This document shows positions 3,691-64,000 of a stretch of DNA of 64,000 nucleotides, piece by piece; positions within the stretch are counted from its first letter, which is position 1, and each line of letters opens with the position of its first letter. Under the pieces are notes generated by a model. That model had not been told where the DNA came from. It ran no database searches and worked only from the letters and a program-made list of their open reading frames with translations. Source of the DNA: Dysgonomonadaceae bacterium PH5-43 (GTDB lineage Bacteria; Bacteroidota; Bacteroidia; Bacteroidales; Azobacteroidaceae). A program made the translations under genes and the position numbers. The DNA lies in assembly GCA_029916745.1 (NCBI GenBank), contig JARXWK010000001.1, forward strand, positions 62,001 to 126,000. The letters run 5' to 3'.

Positions 3691-3848
3691 TTGTTTCATT
3701 CTTTGAAAGTACTTGTTTTACACTATTAAAACAACCTGTTTCATACTTTGAAAAAATTTGTTTCATACAAGTGAAATTACTTGTTTCATATAGGTGAAAC
3801 ACTTTGTTTCATACTATTGAAACTACTTGTTTCACACGGGTGAAACAA
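3691..3848. repeat. Array A: seven units of 22-23 bp with core TTGTTTCA...TGAAA
   Basis: TTGTTT-type starts occur at 3691, 3713, 3736, 3758, 3781, 3804 and 3827, so the pitch is 22-23 bp throughout. Most units contain an imperfect inverted repeat GTTTCA-N5-TGAAAC; the five middle bases vary from unit to unit. There is no open frame here. It fills most of the gap between the tRNA-Arg terminator and the tRNA-Ser terminator. The stretch 3627-3690 and 3849-3949 shows nothing else I can name. Confidence 0.85.
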
Positions 3849-12353: not shown

Positions 12354-12597
12354 TTAGTATAAACCCCTTGCCTTTGTTACTTGATAGGCGAGCTGTTTCT
12401 TAGTAGATACCCGAGTTGCTTCTTAGTAGATAGGCGAGCTGCTTGTTAGTAGATACCCCCTGTTGCTCTTAGTAGAACCGCCTCGCCTTTATACTTAAAG
12501 CGCCCCGTCTTTCTACTAGGAGACACCTCGCCTATCTACTAAGAGAGAGAAGGGGTCTCTTAGTAGAGAGGAGACCCAAAGTGAAGCTTTGCATTTA
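12354..12597. repeat. Array C (copy 1): 23-bp-pitch array with core TTAGTAGA
   Basis: Core starts at 12354, 12377, 12400, 12423, 12446 and 12469 give an exact 23 bp pitch. The next units are degenerate, then the core appears inverted (TCTACTAAGA near 12535) and again direct at 12560. The variable parts alternate between ACCCC- and GGCGAG-like sequences. It ends in AAGTGAAGCTTTGCATTT, the same end as copy 2 at 25160-25380. The rest of the gap 12598-12741 holds only the ompA-family terminator. Confidence 0.88.
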
Positions 12598-25159: not shown

Positions 25160-25380
25160 TTAGTTAATACCCCTTGCTGCTCTTATTAGATACCCCTCCG
25201 CTCTCTTAGTAGATAGGCGAGGTGCTTCTTAGTAGAGACCCGATGCTGCTCTTAGTAGAACCGACTAATCTCTCTTAGTAGAACCACCCCGCCTTTCTTA
25301 GTAGAGAGACCTCGCCTATCTCAGTAGAGAGACAAGGGGTCTCTTAGTAGAGAGACGCCCCTAAGTGAAGCTTTGCATTT
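25160..25380. repeat. Array C (copy 2): nine units at an exact 23 bp pitch, core TTAGTAGA
   Basis: Core starts fall at 25160, 25183, 25206, 25229, 25252, 25275, 25298, 25321 and 25344; every step is 23 bp. The first 8-10 bases of each unit are conserved, the remaining 13 vary but reuse GGCGAGG, ACCCC and CTCGCC-like words. It ends with AAGTGAAGCTTTGCATTT, as copy 1 (12354-12597) does. It fills the convergent gap between eno and the sorting-domain gene; nothing else is visible in 25123-25450. Confidence 0.92.
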
Positions 25381-41708: not shown

Positions 41709-42841
41709 AATATTATCTTATAGCTGGCGAAGCTTCGGGCGACTTACACGCTTCTAACTTAATGAAATCTCTGAAAGAGGTTGATGCTAATGCCGATTTC
41801 AGATACTTCGGTGGCGACCTTATGCAAGCCGTTGGTGGTACTTTGGTTAAGCATTATAAGGAAATGGCTTTTATGGGCTTTATACCCGTATTGCTTAATC
41901 TTAAAACTATATTCAAGAATATGAGTATAGCTCGTGAAGATATTAAGGCTTACAATCCTGATGTGGTTATACTGATAGATTATCCTGGCTTTAATCTTAA
42001 GATGGCTAACTTCGTTAAACAACAGCTAAACATTCCTGTATTTTATTATATATCGCCCAAAATATGGGCTTGGAAAGAGTATCGCATAAAGAATATTAAA
42101 CGAGATGTTGATAAGATGTTTTGCATACTTCCTTTTGAGGTCGACTTCTATAAGAAACATAATTTCCCTGTAGAGTACGTAGGTAATCCTACGGTTGATG
42201 CTTTGGCTTTAAGAGAGCATAAAGATGAAACGTTTGATGAGTTTTGTTCGACTAACTCGTTAAACAACAAGCCAATAATAGCTCTACTGGCTGGTAGCAG
42301 AAAGCAAGAGATTAAAGACAATCTGCCTACTATGATTAAGGTTGCTTCGGAGTATAAAGACTATCAGATTGTAATAGCTGGAGCTCCTGGCATATCACCC
42401 GACTATTATTCGTTATTCTTAAAAGACAGTGATGTTAGCATTGTGTTCGACCAAACATATAGACTACTTAAACAGTCTGACGCTGCTTTGGTAACCTCTG
42501 GCACTGCTACTTTAGAAACTGCATTGTTGAGAGTTCCTCAGGTTGTATGTTATAAAACTCCTGTTAAGCACATTGTTACCTTTGTATGGAACAATTTCTT
42601 TAAGGTTAAATACATATCGTTGGTTAATCTTATCGCCAACAAAACGGTTGTTAAAGAGTTATTTGGCAAATACTTTTCGCCTAAACTTATCTCTAACGAA
42701 TTGAATGATATTTTATATAATAAGGAGTATCGCAATAAGATGCTTGATGAATACGAGCTTGTTGCGTCTCGCTTGGGTAGTGTTGGTGCTTCGCATAAGG
42801 CAGCCCAAGCTATGCTTGGGAAGTTAAAAGATAAAAACTAA
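41705..42841 (+). CDS. lpxB: Lipid-A-disaccharide synthase
   Basis: GT19 glycosyltransferase joining UDP-diacylglucosamine and lipid X to the lipid A disaccharide at the inner membrane. Of 378 residues, the start MKYYLIAGEASGDLHASNL is diagnostic; IDYPGFNLKMA near residue 97, YYISPKIWAWKEYRIKNIK near residue 117, IALLAGSRKQEIKDNLP near residue 196 and VTSGTATLETALLRVPQVVCYKT near residue 263 follow. The last residues KLKDKN and the stop codon are encoded by the TAAAA-type spacer sequence of the downstream hairpin element, which may have replaced the original end. Confidence 0.94.
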   Translation: MKYYLIAGEASGDLHASNLMKSLKEVDANADFRYFGGDLMQAVGGTLVKHYKEMAFMGFIPVLLNLKTIFKNMSIAREDIKAYNPDVVILIDYPGFNLKMANFVKQQLNIPVFYYISPKIWAWKEYRIKNIKRDVDKMFCILPFEVDFYKKHNFPVEYVGNPTVDALALREHKDETFDEFCSTNSLNNKPIIALLAGSRKQEIKDNLPTMIKVASEYKDYQIVIAGAPGISPDYYSLFLKDSDVSIVFDQTYRLLKQSDAALVTSGTATLETALLRVPQVVCYKTPVKHIVTFVWNNFFKVKYISLVNLIANKTVVKELFGKYFSPKLISNELNDILYNKEYRNKMLDEYELVASRLGSVGASHKAAQAMLGKLKDKN

Positions 42842-43070
42842 AAGATAAAAGTTAGAGCTACCAAAAGGTAGTATTTGCATAGTTCGGTAGTTGTATGGAT
42901 AAAAGGCTGAAAGCCTTTTGCTGCCTTATCTCTGGAGACGCGGCACGCCACGTCTCTACTGTGCATTGCGATTGGCTTCGCTTGTCGCCAACTTTTCTCT
43001 TTTAGTTTTTAGTTTTTAACTTGTGCAAAGCACACCAACTTTTAGTTTTTAACTTTTAGTTTTTAGTTTA
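42831..43070. repeat. Hairpin-mosaic element R1 (short form)
   Basis: Between lpxB and trmN6. It begins inside the lpxB stop region with ACTAAAAGATAAAAG spacer, then small hairpins: CTACC-AAAA-GGTAG, AAAAGGCTGAAAGCCTTTT, a 20-bp AGACG...CGTCT hairpin, then GTGC-AAA-GCAC within TTTTTAGTTTTTAAC spacer. Except for the loops it matches the reverse complement of R2 (60230-60385). It lacks the CCTTAGG...GTACGGC core of R2-R4. Confidence 0.85.
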
Positions 43071-58583: not shown

Positions 58584-59093
58584 TTATATATTTCGTCCAC
58601 TTTGTTTTTTTCGAAATTCTCGTGCGCTCATACCGTACATTTTTTGCATAAACTTACGAAAATTAGAGTCGGTTTTGAAACCGCACATTATCATAATATC
58701 GTTAATCGACAAGCTGCTATTTAAGAGGAGGTAACCAACGTTGTAGGCGCGCACAAATTTAAGATATTCTACAAACGAACAACCCGTACGTTCCTTAAAT
58801 TTTACTCGAAATAACGTACCACACATTCCTGAATTACGATGCTCTTCTTTAATATTAAATTCATCGCCACAACAAGTATTTATTCGTAATAAAAGTTCAT
58901 CTATCGAATCAATAGCATTCGATTTTTTATCTACAAATTTAAACTTAACACACTTACTCTCTTTTAGTTGAGGAATTTTTTCACGAACATTATCCTCCCT
59001 GTGTCGAATGCATATATCAACACTGCGCTTTAGGATTAAAACTTCCATAGTTGCAAATTTTGATTTATTTATAAAATACAAATCTCGCAACAT
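58584..59093 (-). CDS. Short AraC-type transcription regulator
   Basis: A 169-residue protein (a second possible start, Met16, lies at 59048). The C-terminal 100 residues form an AraC/XylS double helix-turn-helix: GTLFRVKFKERTGCSFVEYLKFVRAYNVGYLLLNSSLSINDIMIMCGFKTDSNFRKFMQKMYGMSAREFRKK. The N-terminal part has no recognisable sensor domain. It is divergent in role but on the same strand as, and just upstream of, the glycan operon, so it is a good candidate for its activator. Several Bacteroides surface-glycan loci carry such a gene first. Confidence 0.8.
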   Translation of the reverse strand: MLRDLYFINKSKFATMEVLILKRSVDICIRHREDNVREKIPQLKESKCVKFKFVDKKSNAIDSIDELLLRINTCCGDEFNIKEEHRNSGMCGTLFRVKFKERTGCSFVEYLKFVRAYNVGYLLLNSSLSINDIMIMCGFKTDSNFRKFMQKMYGMSAREFRKKQSGRNI

Positions 59094-59160
59094 TATATAT
59101 TATTTTTAACTCTTTTCGAAAATATGTTACAATGGAACGGTATTTTTTTTGGTTCGTATC

Positions 59161-59168
59161 TACCTTTG
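59161..59168 (+). promoter_or_regulatory. -7 box upstream of array D copy 2 and the DUF4373 gene
   Basis: TACCTTTG on the plus strand. A start near 59174 would put the whole array in the leader of the gene starting at 59340. Confidence 0.5.
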
Positions 59169-59197
59169 CACTCAAACACGAAAAACAACAAAAAAAA

Positions 59198-59292
59198 CTC
59201 ACTGTGCCGTTAAAATACCACAGTGAGTTTCGACCCCAAACTCACTGTGAATCAACACAAAACTCACTGTGTTTTTCTAAAATCGAACTGTG
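59198..59292. repeat. Array D (copy 2): five units at 21-22 bp with core CTCACTGTG
   Basis: Core starts at 59198, 59241 and 59263 direct, 59219 inverted (CACAGTGAG) and 59284 degenerate; steps are 21, 22, 22, 21. The first two units form a hairpin. The same core is used in copy 1 after trpA. It lies between the -7 box at 59161 and the DUF4373 start. Confidence 0.85.
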
Positions 59293-59339
59293 TTTTTTCG
59301 AACAACAAACAATATTTTTTAATTTAACAACAAACAATT

Positions 59340-60161
59340 ATGATTAAAGCAGGTTTGGATTATTATCCATTAGACGTTAAGCACTTCAACAACTTCAGTA
59401 CAAAGGCGTTAAAGCGTGAATTTGGCACCGATGCCGTGTTAACTGAAATCTTTATTACAAACATTATTTTTGAGCGAGAAGGATATTATACGCCTTACGA
59501 TATGCATCTGATTATTGAGGTTGCCGATGCTCTTGATATGCCCGAAAATGAAGTTATTTCGATTATCAAAAAATGTGCTGAGCTAAGAATTTTCGACTCG
59601 TTTATGCTCGAAAAGTATGGAATTTTAACTTCTTTAACAATTCAAAAGCGTTTCTTTTACGCTACAAAAAGACGTAAAAAAGTAGAGTTTAGCGCAGATT
59701 ATATTATTGATAAAGAGAAGATTAAAACTAAAAAGCATACATCGTGTATACACGATGTTACTCTAAGTAAAGAAAGTAAAGGAAAAGAAGTAAAGGAAGT
59801 AAAAGAAGTAAAGAATACTCCCCCTAACCCCCTCAACAATGAGGGGGCGTGGAGAAATGATTTTAAAATTTATTGTTCTTTAGCGCAGGCAGCGTATCTG
59901 CAACTAAAGTTCGATTACGAATACATCGACGAACGAAAGCGGTTTTATCCAGCAGTAAATATTCCCTGTTCGCTCGAAAAAGCTTTTATCGAACAATGGA
60001 GCTCCGAAACGTTTTGGAAAAAAATCAGACGACAAACAAGCAACGATATCGACTGGAAAAACGTTTTCAACAAAATGCTGATGAAACCTGCCAACAAAGT
60101 CTGGCTACCCAGAAACACAGAAAACCAGTGCAAACCATCGGGACCAACAATCGTGGATTAA
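59340..60161 (+). CDS. DUF4373 (Lin1244-like) protein
   Basis: A 273-residue protein. The N-terminal 110 residues, with AGLDYYPLDVKHFNNFSTKALKREFGTDAVLTEIFITNIIFEREGYY, are the DUF4373 domain, related to N-termini of phage and plasmid replication proteins. A Lys/Glu/Val-rich linker follows (SKESKGKEVKEVKEVKN near residue 143), then about 100 residues with YEYIDERKRFYP and IEQWSSETFWKKIRRQ. Such proteins often stand next to a DnaB helicase, as here. Two perfect palindromes lie inside the coding part (59739-59758 and 59828-59847). Role in replication is inferred. Confidence 0.78.
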   Translation: MIKAGLDYYPLDVKHFNNFSTKALKREFGTDAVLTEIFITNIIFEREGYYTPYDMHLIIEVADALDMPENEVISIIKKCAELRIFDSFMLEKYGILTSLTIQKRFFYATKRRKKVEFSADYIIDKEKIKTKKHTSCIHDVTLSKESKGKEVKEVKEVKNTPPNPLNNEGAWRNDFKIYCSLAQAAYLQLKFDYEYIDERKRFYPAVNIPCSLEKAFIEQWSSETFWKKIRRQTSNDIDWKNVFNKMLMKPANKVWLPRNTENQCKPSGPTIVD

Positions 60162-60195
60162 TCAATCAAAAGGCTTTTGCCTTTTGATTGATTAA
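60158..60195 (+). terminator. Large hairpin spanning the DUF4373 stop codon
   Basis: Perfect 17-bp arms (60158-60174 and 60179-60195) around TTTT. The stop codon (60159-60161) is within the left arm. No T run follows, so this may act as a processing or protective structure more than a terminator; it is also the left edge of element R2. Confidence 0.55.
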
Positions 60196-60586
60196 AGTTA
60201 AAAACTAAAAACTAAAAGTTAAAAGTTAGTGTGCTTCGCACAAGATAAAAACTAAAAGGTAAAAACTAAAAGTTGGCGCAAAGCGAAGTAAATCGCAATG
60301 CACAGTAGAGATGTGGCGTGCCGCGTCTACAGAGATAAGGCGTAAAACGCAGCAAAAGGCTGAAAGCCTTTTTTTACTTCGCTTTGCGATTTAGTCCCTT
60401 AGGTAACGCTACGCTCACCCAAGGTTATGGAAATATCGCCCATTCGGGCTACCGACTACCCAAAGGGCAGAATCTTCATAGCCGTACGGCGAGCTAAGCG
60501 TTGCCTACGGTTGTCGAGGTATATTGTGCGAAGCACATAACTTTTAGTTTTTAGTTTTTAGCTTTTATCTTTTTGTAAAACAAAAA
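60196..60586. repeat. Hairpin-mosaic element R2
   Basis: About 390 bp without a credible gene. Order: TTAAAAACTAAAAG spacers with GTGTGCTTCGCACAAG, GCGCAAAGCGAAG, the 20-bp hairpin AGA(T)GTGGCGTGCCGCGTCT, AAAAGGCTGAAAGCCTTTT, then the core CCTTAGGT-N12-ACCCAAGG, GCCCATTCGGGC, CTACCC-AAA-GGGCAG, GCCGTACGGC, and finally GTGCGAAGCAC with TTTTTAGTTTTTAG spacers. It ends within a few bases of the dnaB start. The core (about 60384-60530) matches R4 directly and R3 in reverse. Confidence 0.9.
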
Positions 60587-60589
60587 CAT

Positions 60590-61960
60590 ATGCAAAACAA
60601 AAAACCAGCGGTTAGGATTATGCCGCAAGCTCAAGAAATAGAACAGGCGGTGATTGGCGCACTGCTTATCGAGAGTTCGGCTCTCGGAAAGGTAATCGAT
60701 TTTCTCACTCCTGAGGATTTCTACAACAAGCATTACGCATTCATTTACAGTGCGATAGTAAAAATGTCGGTCGAGAAAAAACCTATCGATATGCTTACCG
60801 TTGTCGAAGAAATGCAAGGTAGAGCCGAGTTCGACAAGATGGGCGGAATACCCTTTATCGCTTCCATTACGCAAAGCGTTGTATCGTCGACGCACATCGA
60901 TTATCACTCTAAAATTATCAAGCAGAAGTCTATAGCACGACAGCTAATCGCCATTACTGCTGAAACTTACGAGAAATGTTTCGACCCCTCGAACGACATT
61001 GACGATATTATCGAACAGCTCGATATGGCGTTCACGCAACTGATGGCTAACACCTCGACAGAGCAGTCGAAAGCGATGCCGCAGGTGATGAAAGAAACCA
61101 TCGACAAAATCAACAAGGCGCACACCGACAGGGAGAATGGCGTTTCGCCTGGCATACCCACTCACCTCGAGGCGTTAGACAAGGTTTTGCACGGTGGCTG
61201 GCAAACTCCCGACCTGATTGTGATTGGTGCTCGTCCCTCGATGGGGAAAACTCAGCACGCTCTGCAGATTGCCGAAACGGCAGCTCGACATAATCGTCAC
61301 ACGCTCTTTTGCACCATCGAAATGGTGGCTACCCAACTGGGTAACAGGCTGATATTGGCAAACAACAAAATAAACGAGGCTAACATTCGCAAAGGAAGTC
61401 TGTCGCAAGAAGAATGGTTTGAACTCGACCTTCGAGTGAGCGAAATAAACAACATAAAGCTTCGCATTGCCGACCATCACGCCATTCGTATGCTGAGCAA
61501 CATAAAGGCAGAGGCTCGTCGCCTGAAACGGAAATCGGAACTCGATCTTCTGATTATCGACTACTTAGGCTTGATAAAAACAAATCTGAAATTCGGTCTC
61601 CGACAGCAAGAAATTGCCTACATAACGGGCGAACTGAAGGCTCTGGCTAAAGAACTTAGCATACCGGTGATATTGTTGTCGCAGCTTAGCAGGGCGCAGA
61701 AGAATGCTCCTGCACGAGAGCCAGTTCTTGAAGATTTGCGTGAGTCGGGCGACATCGAACAGGACGCCGACATAGTGCTGATGCTCCACAAACCCGATTA
61801 TTACGACAAAGACGCTGTCGCTTCAAACGGTATGGAGTGGAAAAACCGAGGCAAGATTATTGTCGCCAAAAACCGCGAGGGCAACCGCAATGTCGATGTG
61901 ATATTTGAACACGATAGCCGATACAAGAATATTTTTGCGTGCAAACACGCAAAAAGTTAA
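60590..61960 (+). CDS. dnaB: Replicative DNA helicase, DnaB type
   Basis: Hexameric 5'-3' helicase of 456 residues. The N-terminal helical domain has QAQEIEQAVIGALLIESSALGKVIDFLTPEDFYNKHYAFIYSAI; the RecA-like domain begins near residue 190 with LDKVLHGGWQTPDLIVIGARPSMGKTQHALQIA (Walker A GARPSMGKT), and the Walker B-type LDLLIIDYLGLI near residue 318; QLSRAQKNAPAREPVLEDLRESGDIEQDADIVLMLHKPDYY is the H4 region. By eye its base composition is clearly richer in G and C than its neighbours, and it sits between inverted repeat elements beside a DUF4373 gene, so it may be acquired and not the housekeeping copy. Its last residues and stop codon lie in spacer sequence of R3. Confidence 0.92.
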   Translation: MQNKKPAVRIMPQAQEIEQAVIGALLIESSALGKVIDFLTPEDFYNKHYAFIYSAIVKMSVEKKPIDMLTVVEEMQGRAEFDKMGGIPFIASITQSVVSSTHIDYHSKIIKQKSIARQLIAITAETYEKCFDPSNDIDDIIEQLDMAFTQLMANTSTEQSKAMPQVMKETIDKINKAHTDRENGVSPGIPTHLEALDKVLHGGWQTPDLIVIGARPSMGKTQHALQIAETAARHNRHTLFCTIEMVATQLGNRLILANNKINEANIRKGSLSQEEWFELDLRVSEINNIKLRIADHHAIRMLSNIKAEARRLKRKSELDLLIIDYLGLIKTNLKFGLRQQEIAYITGELKALAKELSIPVILLSQLSRAQKNAPAREPVLEDLRESGDIEQDADIVLMLHKPDYYDKDAVASNGMEWKNRGKIIVAKNREGNRNVDVIFEHDSRYKNIFACKHAKS

Positions 61961-62314
61961 AAACTAAAAACTAAAAGATAAAAGTTGGTGTGCTTCGCAC
62001 AAGTTAAAAACTAAAAGTTAAAAACTAAAAGTTGGCGCAAAGCGAAGCAAATCGCAATGCAGCATACACATCAATAACCGCAGGCAACGCTTCGCTCGCC
62101 GTACGGCTATGAAACTGCTACCCTTTGGGTAGGCGGTAGCCCGAATGGGCGATATATCCATAACCTTAGGTGAGCGTAGCGTTACCTAAGGAGATAAGGT
62201 GCCGATTTGCGCCAATTCTTAGTTCTAAAAAGGCTGAAAGCCTTACAGACCTTAGCGTAGGGTAAGTGCCGCTTTGCGCAACTCTTAGTTCTTCACTCTT
62301 AGTTCTTAGTTCTA
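61951..62314. repeat. Hairpin-mosaic element R3 (inverted relative to R2 and R4)
   Basis: Starts inside the dnaB stop region with AAAAGTTAAAAACTAAAAAC spacer and GTGTGCTTCGCACAAG. Its core at about 62060-62195 reads GCTTCGC, GCCGTACGGC, CTACCC-TTT-GGGTAG, GCCCGAATGGGC, then CCTTAGGT-N12-ACCTAAGG (62164-62191), the reverse complement of R2 and R4. AACTAAGAG-type spacer then runs to the stop codon of the 225-residue gene. AAAAGGCTGAAAGCC also occurs. Confidence 0.9.
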
Positions 62315-62989
62315 AACGATATTATCGGCATTTATAACATACTCAACAACACCATAAAGGAATTTCACAGGATGAAAAGAATAAGATATTGTATTGTTTT
62401 CTGTATCTAATGTAGAAGAAAATATCAATAAAAATGTAGAATCGCCGATGTTATTTTTCTTATATTTTTCTACACAAGACTTATACTTATCAGAAATAGC
62501 ATCTCTCTGCGAACTCATTTCGTCATTGTTGTTTGCGAATTGCTTAAACCAATCTTCAAAATGGTCATTAGTTCTTATATAGCCAATAAACTTTCTCAAT
62601 TTAAATTCAATCATTCTGGCAGGATTAGAATCGATTAAATCTTTCGTGTTATCTATTTCAAAAATCAATACAGAATCTTGTTGCACTCTATGTTTTTCGG
62701 CTCCATACAATCGTTTTATCAATACCGCATCATTATTTTTAATATTAGCAAAAGACATTGAGTTTCCTTGAACTATGAATATTTCAAAATCATTAGGATC
62801 TACAACTTCATTTTTAAAAACAAATTTTTTATTAAGTAGATTGTTAATCTCAATGGTGTAAGGTCTGATACAATTAACATCTCCAGCTTTAACAACTTTA
62901 TATGATTTTTTCTGCACAACAGGTCTGTTGCACCACAAAAAGATAATGAATACAATAAATAAGATTAATATAACAATAATTGCAATCAT
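62312..62989 (-). CDS. Membrane-anchored S24/S26-like protein of unknown function
   Basis: A 225-residue protein with one N-terminal membrane segment (IAIIVILILFIVFIIFLW) and a soluble rest. Residues about 70-98, FEIFIVQGNSMSFANIKNNDAVLIKRL, match the G-x-SM-x(n)-D-x-V pattern of S24 (LexA/CI) and S26 peptidases; a second FKLRKFIGYI segment near residue 130 may be the Lys-bearing strand. If active it would be a self-cleaving or signal-peptidase-like enzyme, but the catalytic Lys is uncertain. It overlaps the upstream gene by four bases. Its stop codon lies at the edge of spacer repeats of R3. No family known to me. Confidence 0.55.
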   Translation of the reverse strand: MIAIIVILILFIVFIIFLWCNRPVVQKKSYKVVKAGDVNCIRPYTIEINNLLNKKFVFKNEVVDPNDFEIFIVQGNSMSFANIKNNDAVLIKRLYGAEKHRVQQDSVLIFEIDNTKDLIDSNPARMIEFKLRKFIGYIRTNDHFEDWFKQFANNNDEMSSQRDAISDKYKSCVEKYKKNNIGDSTFLLIFSSTLDTENNTISYSFHPVKFLYGVVEYVINADNIV

Positions 62990-63444
62990 ATTTCTGAGAT
63001 TATTACTGGTTTATTCAATTCAATTATTTTAGGCTGAGCAAATTTAATACTAAGATATTTTATAACTAATAAAGCTATCCAAAAAAGAAAGAAACATATT
63101 ATTTTTGCAAATAAGAGCTCTACTGCAACTGTAAATATTAAGAAAACTGCAATCAAAGCTAAGAATATAAAATTCATAATCAAACTTAATCGCATCTGTT
63201 CCTTTTCAAAATCTTTTGTTGTTAAAACCAAATATGCTGTATCTATTAAGTGTAGAACAATAACCATTGTTAGAGAAAACAAATAAGACTTAGATAATTC
63301 AACAACATCATTACTTGTTAGAAAAGAAAAATCTCCACTCAACAATGCATTCGGGAAAGTAGCTCCAAATATAATTACTCCCCAAAAAAACGTATATACT
63401 AACGCTGATATTTCCTTTGCTTTTCTCTCCCCTAATCTCAACAT
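62986..63444 (-). CDS. Four-helix membrane protein of unknown function
   Basis: A 152-residue protein with about four hydrophobic segments: TFFWGVIIFGATFPNALL, SYLFSLTMVIVLHLIDTAYLVL, LIMNFIFLALIAVFLIFTVAVELLF and IICFFLFWIALLVIKYLSI. It begins with a basic stretch MLRLGERKAKE. The gene forms a coupled pair with the S24/S26-like gene downstream (ATGA overlap) and the pair is bracketed by hairpin elements R3 and R4. I recognise no family; the pair looks like a small module acting at the inner membrane. Confidence 0.6.
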   Translation of the reverse strand: MLRLGERKAKEISALVYTFFWGVIIFGATFPNALLSGDFSFLTSNDVVELSKSYLFSLTMVIVLHLIDTAYLVLTTKDFEKEQMRLSLIMNFIFLALIAVFLIFTVAVELLFAKIICFFLFWIALLVIKYLSIKFAQPKIIELNKPVIISEI

Positions 63445-63535
63445 ATTAACAATAAAGGTTTTATAAATGTTTATTTCGAACGCAAAAATAATCTTTTTTT
63501 CTGATTAGACAATCTAAAAAGTTAAAAACATTCTG

Positions 63536-63914
63536 GAACGAAGAACTAAGAGTGAAGAACTAAGAGCTGTGTGCTTCGCACAAGTTAAAAGTTAAAAGTT
63601 AAAAACTAAAAGTTGGCGCAATGCACAGTAGAGACGTGGCGTGCCGCGTCTACAGAGCACAGCAAAAGGCTGAAAGCCTTTTTTTACTTCGCTTTGCGAT
63701 TTAGTCCCTTAGGTAACGCTACGCTCACCTAAGGTTATGGATATATCGCCCATTCGGGCTACCGACTACCCAAAGGGTAGCAGTTTCATAGCCGTACGGC
63801 GAGCGAAGCGTTGCCTGCGGTTATTGATGTATGTGCCGCATTGCGATTTACTTCGCTTTGCGCCAGTTCTTAGTTCTTCACTCTTAGTACTAAAAAGGCT
63901 GAAAGCCTTTTTAG
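63536..63914. repeat. Hairpin-mosaic element R4
   Basis: AACTAAGAG spacer, then TGTGCTTCGCACA (63570-63582), TTAAAAACTAAAAG spacer, the AGACG...CGTCT hairpin (63632-63651), AAAAGGCTGAAAGCCTTTT (63664-63682), CCTTAGGT/ACCTAAGG (63707-63734), GCCCATTCGGGC (63748-63759), CTACCC-AAA-GGGTAG (63766-63780), GCCGTACGGC (63791-63800), CTTCGCTTTGCG, AACTAAGAG-type spacer and a second AAAAGGCTGAAAGCC hairpin (63892-63911). Same orientation as R2. Confidence 0.9.
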
Positions 63915-63937
63915 AACAAATTTATTTACCAAAAAGC

Positions 63938-63968
63938 TTGACTTTCGCCTTAAAATTTTGTATCTTTG
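63938..63968 (+). promoter_or_regulatory. Promoter near the right edge
   Basis: TTG at 63938-63940 and TATCTTTG at 63961-63968, separated by 20 bases. Confidence 0.65.
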
Positions 63969-63979
63969 TTATGTAATAA

Positions 63980-64000
63980 ATGCCAAGTCGACAAAGCCAT
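63980..64000 (+). CDS. Possible start of a gene cut by the window edge
   Basis: ATG at 63980 followed by six open codons (MPSRQSH) to the end of the window, about six bases after the predicted transcription start of a good promoter. Too short to identify. Confidence 0.3.

Follow-up and report, generated by a model that had tools for sequence, protein, structure and literature searches.

Foldback repeats with 7-bp array arms and nested REP-like hairpins in the genome of Dysgonomonadaceae bacterium PH5-43

Introduction

Bacterial interspersed mosaic elements (BIMEs), repetitive extragenic palindromes (REPs) and REPINs are short, high-copy palindromes that occur between genes in inverted or mosaic groups, with a preference for gene 3ʹ ends and for convergent or codirectional gaps (PMC3733652). 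A ‘double foot’ REP form, in which GTAG and CTAC feet enclose a variable core, is found in many Bacteroidota and has been assigned to TnpA-REP subclass 2.4 (PMC6006769). Other intergenic repeats are built from tandem units, such as the 23-bp units of the BrickBuilt miniature inverted-repeat transposable element (MITE) of Porphyromonas gingivalis (PMC4596501) or the TAACTGA heptamers of Beggiatoaceae, Cyanobacteria and some Bacteroidetes (PMC4679880). Here we describe four repeat elements, R1 to R4, found in a 64,000-nucleotide window (bases 62001-126000 of contig 1) of the genome of Dysgonomonadaceae bacterium PH5-43, which unite two kinds of Bacteroidota repeat hitherto described separately, direct heptamer arrays and double-foot REPs with GTAG, in one element with a clear anatomy and a grammar.

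R1-R4 share some features with each of these systems and depart from each in others. Like BIMEs and REPs, they consist of short, high-copy intergenic palindromes in inverted and mosaic groupings, and one block (E...H') resembles a REPIN in being made of two inverted copies. However, several unrelated hairpin types are combined here with 7-bp repeat arms, GTAG feet occur only on module C, and no REP-associated tyrosine transposase (RAYT) was found in the genome. Module C has the GTAG and CTAC feet, variable core and Bacteroidota distribution of double-foot REPs, but it forms part of a larger mosaic, and a cognate tnpA-REP gene was found neither in the genome nor beside the sister-species RAYTs that were checked. 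BrickBuilt is likewise a non-coding intergenic element of Bacteroidales with a tandem array and inverted-repeat ends; its single array, with leader and tail, lies between short inverted ends, whereas in R1-R4 the arrays have a period of 7, form the arms and leave the centre to hairpins. The TAACTGA repeats are also intergenic tandem 7-bp units that place stops in all frames, sometimes overlap an upstream stop codon and are absent from the orthologous sites of close relatives, but they are single direct arrays, whereas the unit here is different (TAAAA/TAAGA) and makes up the inverted arms of a hairpin element. In eukaryotic foldback (FB) elements, a variable centre is enclosed by long inverted arms that consist of short tandem subrepeats; in the bacterial elements described here the arms measure only ~28-50 bp, and the resemblance is one of layout with no sign of kinship. 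By their description, the mosaic intergenic regions of Neisseria (dRS3 and others, in PMC3733652) also hold interleaved repeat families clustered between genes.

The suggestion in an earlier note, made from the DNA letters alone, that the design is unknown among described families was thus overstated, since BIMEs, REPINs and the Neisseria regions embody the same idea. The concept is that of a BIME, individual parts correspond to double-foot REPs and to heptamer repeats, and BrickBuilt is a structural neighbour. Inverted heptamer-array arms enclosing REP-like hairpins were not found as a combination in the papers searched, which did not extend to subscription journals, and a literature search on the repeat sequences themselves returned no paper.

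Materials and methods

The genome under study (G000; 2.54 Mb, 46 contigs, 99.97% complete) was compared with 41 genomes of its genus. Reversed patterns served as controls for pattern counts. Module counts other than those from pattern searches refer to 529 kb of the genome, comprising all element neighbourhoods together with unselected stretches and mostly chosen around elements. Module architectures are based on this 529-kb scan, and the tally of ~68 elements comes from the stretches examined in the genome. Orthologues of trmN6 were traced within the genus, where relatives share 55-59% identity in TrmN6 and ~74% in LpxB.

Results and discussion

Four multicopy, non-coding composites

The elements lie at the following positions, with modules designated by letters and inverted modules by primes.

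42824-43066, + strand: R1, a short element in the gap between lpxB and trmN6 (tRNA1(Val) methyltransferase-like); from the module scan and relatives' loci
60196-60586, + strand: R2, a full composite foldback, j-A-j-B-C-D-B'-E-F-G-H'-A'-j'; from the module scan and folding
61951-62314, + strand: R3, a composite, j-A-j-B-H-G'-F'-E'-D-k'; from the module scan, folding and gene context
63536-63914, + strand: R4, a composite, k-A-j-C-D-E-F-G-H'-B'-k'-D, with outer arms of GAACTAA-type heptamer arrays; from the module scan and folding

In these analyses R2, R3, R4 and the short form R1 all proved to lie where they had been placed, and the small hairpins of which they had been said to be composed were present. 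The elements are 240-390 bp long and align with one another piecewise in both orientations. Whole-genome searches returned more than 100 partial matches per query (133 for R4 and 118 for R2), so the elements have many other copies dispersed over the genome, contrary to the absence of copies that would have refuted the earlier note, and individual loci share 80-95% sequence identity. Among the modules, A gave 46 hits, H gave 32 and C about 21. The earlier view that the elements encode nothing also stands, given that no open reading frame (ORF) of at least 120 amino acids lies inside R1-R4; no Rfam family matched window positions 59000-64000 at E <= 0.1.

R2 and R4 are predicted to fold end to end, R2 with a free energy of -153.5 kcal/mol compared with -94.8 kcal/mol in shuffled sequences (z -9.5) and R4 with a z-score of -10.7. 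The corresponding z-scores are -4.5 for R3 and -5.3 for R1, no shuffle of any of the four folded as well as the native sequence, and 21 of the 22 elements tested reached z <= -4.

Inverted heptamer arrays form the arms of a foldback

What had been taken for A-rich spacers between the hairpins are tandem 7-bp arrays with the general unit [N]TAA[A/G]A[A/G], which fall into types j ([N]TAAAA[A/G]) and k (CTAAGAR/TGAAGAA). Arrays of four full units are commonest (72 of 104). The outer arm of R2 illustrates the arrangement.

60198-60225, + strand: left outer arm of R2, array j with the four units TTAAAAA CTAAAAA CTAAAAG TTAAAAG, which pairs with the right arm in the fold
60541-60568, - strand: right outer arm of R2, inverted heptamer array j'; from the fold and array scan
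60231-60243, no strand assigned: module A, the TGTGCTTCGCACA hairpin of the R2 left arm, whose inverted partner A' is at 60525-60537

Adjacent heptamer arrays face inward (+-) in 21 cases and outward (-+) in only 2 in this genome (p 7e-5), and the sister species of the genus give 8 and 0, respectively (p 0.008). Because either arrangement reads the same on the other strand, this bias is not an effect of orientation. Inward-facing arrays and the end-to-end folding of R2 and R4, in which the terminal heptamer arrays pair, contradict the previous statement that terminal inverted repeats are lacking.

The simplest copies are hairpins of ~130 bp, consisting of heptamer arms and two flanking hairpins. 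In the ground-state copy at C7:79455-79590 of G000, the order is A-j-(TTGGCGCAAAGCG)-loop-(CGCTTCGCGTCAA)-j'-A', and similar foldbacks are present at C11:16780-16945 and C10:73395-73545. Small foldbacks of the same kind but with different loops occur in relatives (L032, L035 and L048). R1-R4 are such ~130-bp foldbacks with extra hairpins nested inside. The possibility that all heptamer arrays of the genus form inverted pairs was also considered and was not supported, as the inverted-partner score for 23 arrays was 9.7 compared with 9.8 for the control.

Cargo modules obey a grammar

The nested hairpins are exemplified by those of R2.

60275-60301, + strand: module B, GGCGCAAAGCGAAGYMAATCGCAATGC, which pairs with the inverted ACTTCGCTTTGCGATTTAG at ~60377-60395; from the module scan and R2 fold
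60307-60333, + strand: module C, GTAGAGA.G...CGTCTAC, a REP-like double-foot GTAG palindrome; from the module scan and phylum search
60354-60372, no strand assigned: module D, AAAAGGCTGAAAGCCTTTT, a bidirectional (symmetrical) terminator-like hairpin; from the module scan and terminator scan
60397-60510, + strand: block E-F-G-H', with E and H inverted and the small hairpins GCCCATTCGGGC and CTACCCAAAGGG between them; from the module scan and comparison

The blocks j-B-C and E-F-G-H' recur with their order and direction kept. Modules E (CCTTAGGTAACGCTACGCTCACCTAAGGTTATGG) and H (CCGTAGGCAACGCTTCGCTCGCCGTACGGCTATGG) are versions of a single hairpin that have diverged; they flank F and G as an inverted pair, and the stem changes between them (T-A to G-C and T-A to C-G) preserve pairing; when the two were compared in the manner of a REPIN (CCTTAGGTAACGCTACGCTCACCTAAGG versus CCGTAGGCAACGCTTCGCTCGCCGTACGG), both sides of the stem had changed. 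Two inverted copies around a short spacer, the hallmark of REPINs, are seen as E/H' in R2-R4 and in other copies. Accordingly, the CCTTAGGT...ACCTAAGG and GCCGTACGGC hairpins, at first counted as separate kinds, belong to diverged inverted copies of one module. The idea that modules are gained, lost and flipped independently is partly right, but flipping is not free, as adjacency and orientation are strongly constrained.

An element-free locus and patchy expansion

Sister species carry lpxB and trmN6 without an intervening element. Two of them have a gap of only ~25-40 bp (L242 and L243, in G026 and G016), and in five others lpxB is fused to a trmN6-like methyltransferase in one open frame of ~626-684 amino acids (L248 and L255-L258). 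It follows that R1 is a lineage-specific addition or, less simply, that the element was lost repeatedly elsewhere. A GTGCTTCGCAC-like stretch inside lpxB (42785) was examined as a candidate part of R1 and rejected, because it encodes a GASxKAA stretch common to sister LpxB proteins. Other heptamers (TCGTAAT and CAGTTAC) lie at or near the lpxB-trmN6 junction in L255, L256 and L257, and those at or near the fusion point lie in a stop-free reading direction where read.

The heptamer pattern has 77 matches in this genome, 317 in G002, 190 in G015, 152 in G019 and 97 in G016, and none in many other genomes of the genus, compared with 0-4 per genome for the reversed pattern. It is rare in the order outside the genus. 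Such patchiness is the behaviour of mobile or selfish repeats, and sister genomes with zero to more than 300 matches, together with an empty orthologous locus, make repeat movement testable by comparison.

A probable origin as mobile foldbacks with acquired cargo

We consider it probable that R1-R4 are non-autonomous, BIME/MITE-like mobile repeats with a ~130-bp foldback base that acquired REP-like cargo inside. The observations behind this reading are multiplicity, inverted heptamer arms, the module grammar, the element-free orthologous site, a preference for gene 3ʹ ends and patchy expansion. In the proposed scheme, each arm would combine the small hairpin A with an array of roughly four to five 7-bp units and with half of a second hairpin, B. 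REP-like palindromes (C, the inverted pair E...H', and D) would insert into these pre-existing foldbacks as cargo and yield nested hairpins of up to 390 bp, and C and E/H probably represent REP-type palindromes able to move on their own that became nested in this way. Spread could occur through transposition or through template-mediated copying of the single-stranded hairpin, with enzymes supplied in trans. Elements would persist just after genes, where the heptamers offer stops in three frames and the hairpins may terminate transcription or form mRNA 3ʹ ends; landing there with such stops and terminator-like hairpins would do little damage, and the elements may be tolerated for this reason.

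Several points weigh against this interpretation. Many copies are one-armed or tandem, and sister-species arrays of other heptamer sequence are mostly not inverted pairs, which limits the foldback form to the TAAAA/TAAGA type. No target-site duplication was evident in 20 flank pairs, where the target is not exactly definable without a close empty site. There is a single element-free orthologous site, in distant relatives, and insertion over deletion is thus not proved. In this nearly complete genome no Y1_Tnp/RAYT gene was matched, and a search of the genome limited to Y1_Tnp linked none of the modules to a transposase.

A bolder proposal is that the elements constitute a distinct bacterial foldback class whose inverted arms grow in strict 7-bp steps through a probably RAYT-independent process acting across Bacteroidota on differing units, with the hairpin loop serving as a landing platform for REPs. 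We regard this as a tentative and rather doubtful extension.

Position relative to genes

All but one of the 68 elements with usable flanks are intergenic. Of these 68, 26 lie in codirectional, 21 in convergent and 17 in divergent gaps; three more adjoin the edge of a contig or stretch, and the last is a single array within an ORF. Convergent gaps are enriched (21/64 versus 32/322 element-free gaps, p 1e-5), also when compared with gaps over 80 bp (p 0.005). The median distance to a gene 3ʹ end is 82 bp, compared with 269 bp to a 5ʹ end, and the preference within 25 bp has p 0.0004. Since the heptamers carry TAA or TGA and seven is not a multiple of three, a run of at least three units closes all three frames of the A-rich strand with a stop codon. 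The window offers two direct contacts with genes: the C-terminal LKDKN of LpxB and its stop codon are encoded by heptamers of R1, and the left heptamer array of R3, which lies between dnaB and a convergent ORF, overlaps the dnaB stop codon. R2 is flanked by an ORF with a Lin1244_N domain on one side and the dnaB-like helicase gene on the other.

These positions also accord with an explanation in which selection has amplified the elements for a role as composite terminators of transcription or as mRNA 3ʹ ends, acting in both directions and protecting transcripts, with mobility secondary or absent. The hairpin of module D resembles a terminator in both directions, and positions 59500-64000 contain 12 terminator-like sites where 3.9 are expected. 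However, 17 of the 64 intergenic elements occupy divergent gaps, many are hundreds of bases from gene ends, the 80-95% identity between loci needs copying, and sister species do without any element at lpxB-trmN6. We therefore judge this explanation unlikely.

Module C and the search for a mobilizing enzyme

Module C (GTAGAGACG...CGTCTCTAC) has 21 matches in this genome at no more than 3 mismatches and none for the reversed pattern. Of 296 genomes sampled from the phylum, 15 contain the palindrome, and it stands between unrelated flanks in 92 stretches of other genomes, mostly Bacteroidota, which makes it a REP-type unit in its own right. Elsewhere its GTAG/CTAC feet are fixed and its core varies (CGGCATGCCG, TTGCATGCAA, AGGCATGCCT and others), so that, as judged by sequence, it agrees with the ‘double foot’ REPs described in the literature. 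The GTAG/CGTC foot tag was not seen in A, B, D or E/H. A 27-bp form of C is also present at L188 3525-3551, in a record titled Candidatus Neomarinimicrobiota, which suggests either spread beyond Bacteroidota or a mislabelled contig.

A classical RAYT-driven REP/BIME system, in which a tyrosine transposase acts on the GTAG palindromes to copy them, with the rest of the element as a passive passenger, would account for the feet of module C, and RAYT-type Y1_Tnp genes are present in 20 of the 41 genus genomes. A RAYT is the obvious mobilizer candidate, yet there is none in this genome; module C is missing from many elements and was not found within ~1.5 kb of a RAYT at any of 15 sister-species loci, where such hairpins as were seen nearby differ from the window modules (e.g. 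GCATTCCGTAGGAATGC). This system is accordingly an improbable source of the elements, and their BIME/MITE-like behaviour is better supported than membership of a RAYT-REP family. At L106 1391-2397, GCATTCCGTAGGAATGC palindromes recur at ~54-bp spacing after a sister-species RAYT-type transposase gene; they are likely its cognate REP array and are unrelated to the window modules.

Predominance of period seven in the genus

Exact tandem repeats within R1-R4 have a period of 7, as do 5 of the 6 in the window, 35 of the 39 in element neighbourhoods and, with many unit sequences, 12 of the 22 arrays in unselected stretches of sister species. No exact tandem repeats were found in 50 kb of Escherichia coli at the same threshold. 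Exact tandem repeats of the genus (L271-L290, L242-L270 and L104-L118) are overwhelmingly of period 7, with units that include AATTACG, AACTGGT, AATTCTC and AACTCAT. A general heptamer bias in bacteria is known (PMC4692102), and TAACTGA arrays are known in Bacteroidetes (PMC4679880), but no paper explaining a sequence-independent 7-bp step was found in the literature searched. Local expansion at the individual sites, by slippage in 7-bp steps and by inverted duplication, with gene conversion between dispersed hairpins and no transposition, draws on this dominance of period 7 whatever the unit and on the TCGTAAT and CAGTTAC heptamers of three sister species, but it is very improbable, as dispersed loci share long high-identity stretches (j-B-C and E-F-G-H') in the same module order, for which slippage cannot account.

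Other repeats in the same genome

A second repeat type, which the earlier note does not mention, consists of ~25-30-bp units around TCTTAGTAGA that end in a conserved AGAGACGNCCCTAAGTGAAGCTTTGCATTT tag, with arrays in the window at 12380-12590 and 25160-25380 and also at L054 2820-2960 and L089 3060-3320. At ~20 other loci, j-B-C or j-G-H' units are joined directly to the AGAGACGNCCCTAAGTGAAGCTTTGCATTT tag. A further dispersed family of TATGAAACAAAGTGTTTCA-like palindromes, which often adjoin elements of the foldback class, occurs at L053, L064, L071, other loci and window positions 3749-3795. Finally, L055 (G000 C3:126345-128175) holds 25 closely spaced copies of TTGTGATTTGCTATCAAAATTGTATCTTTG and is probably an array of clustered regularly interspaced short palindromic repeats (CRISPR).

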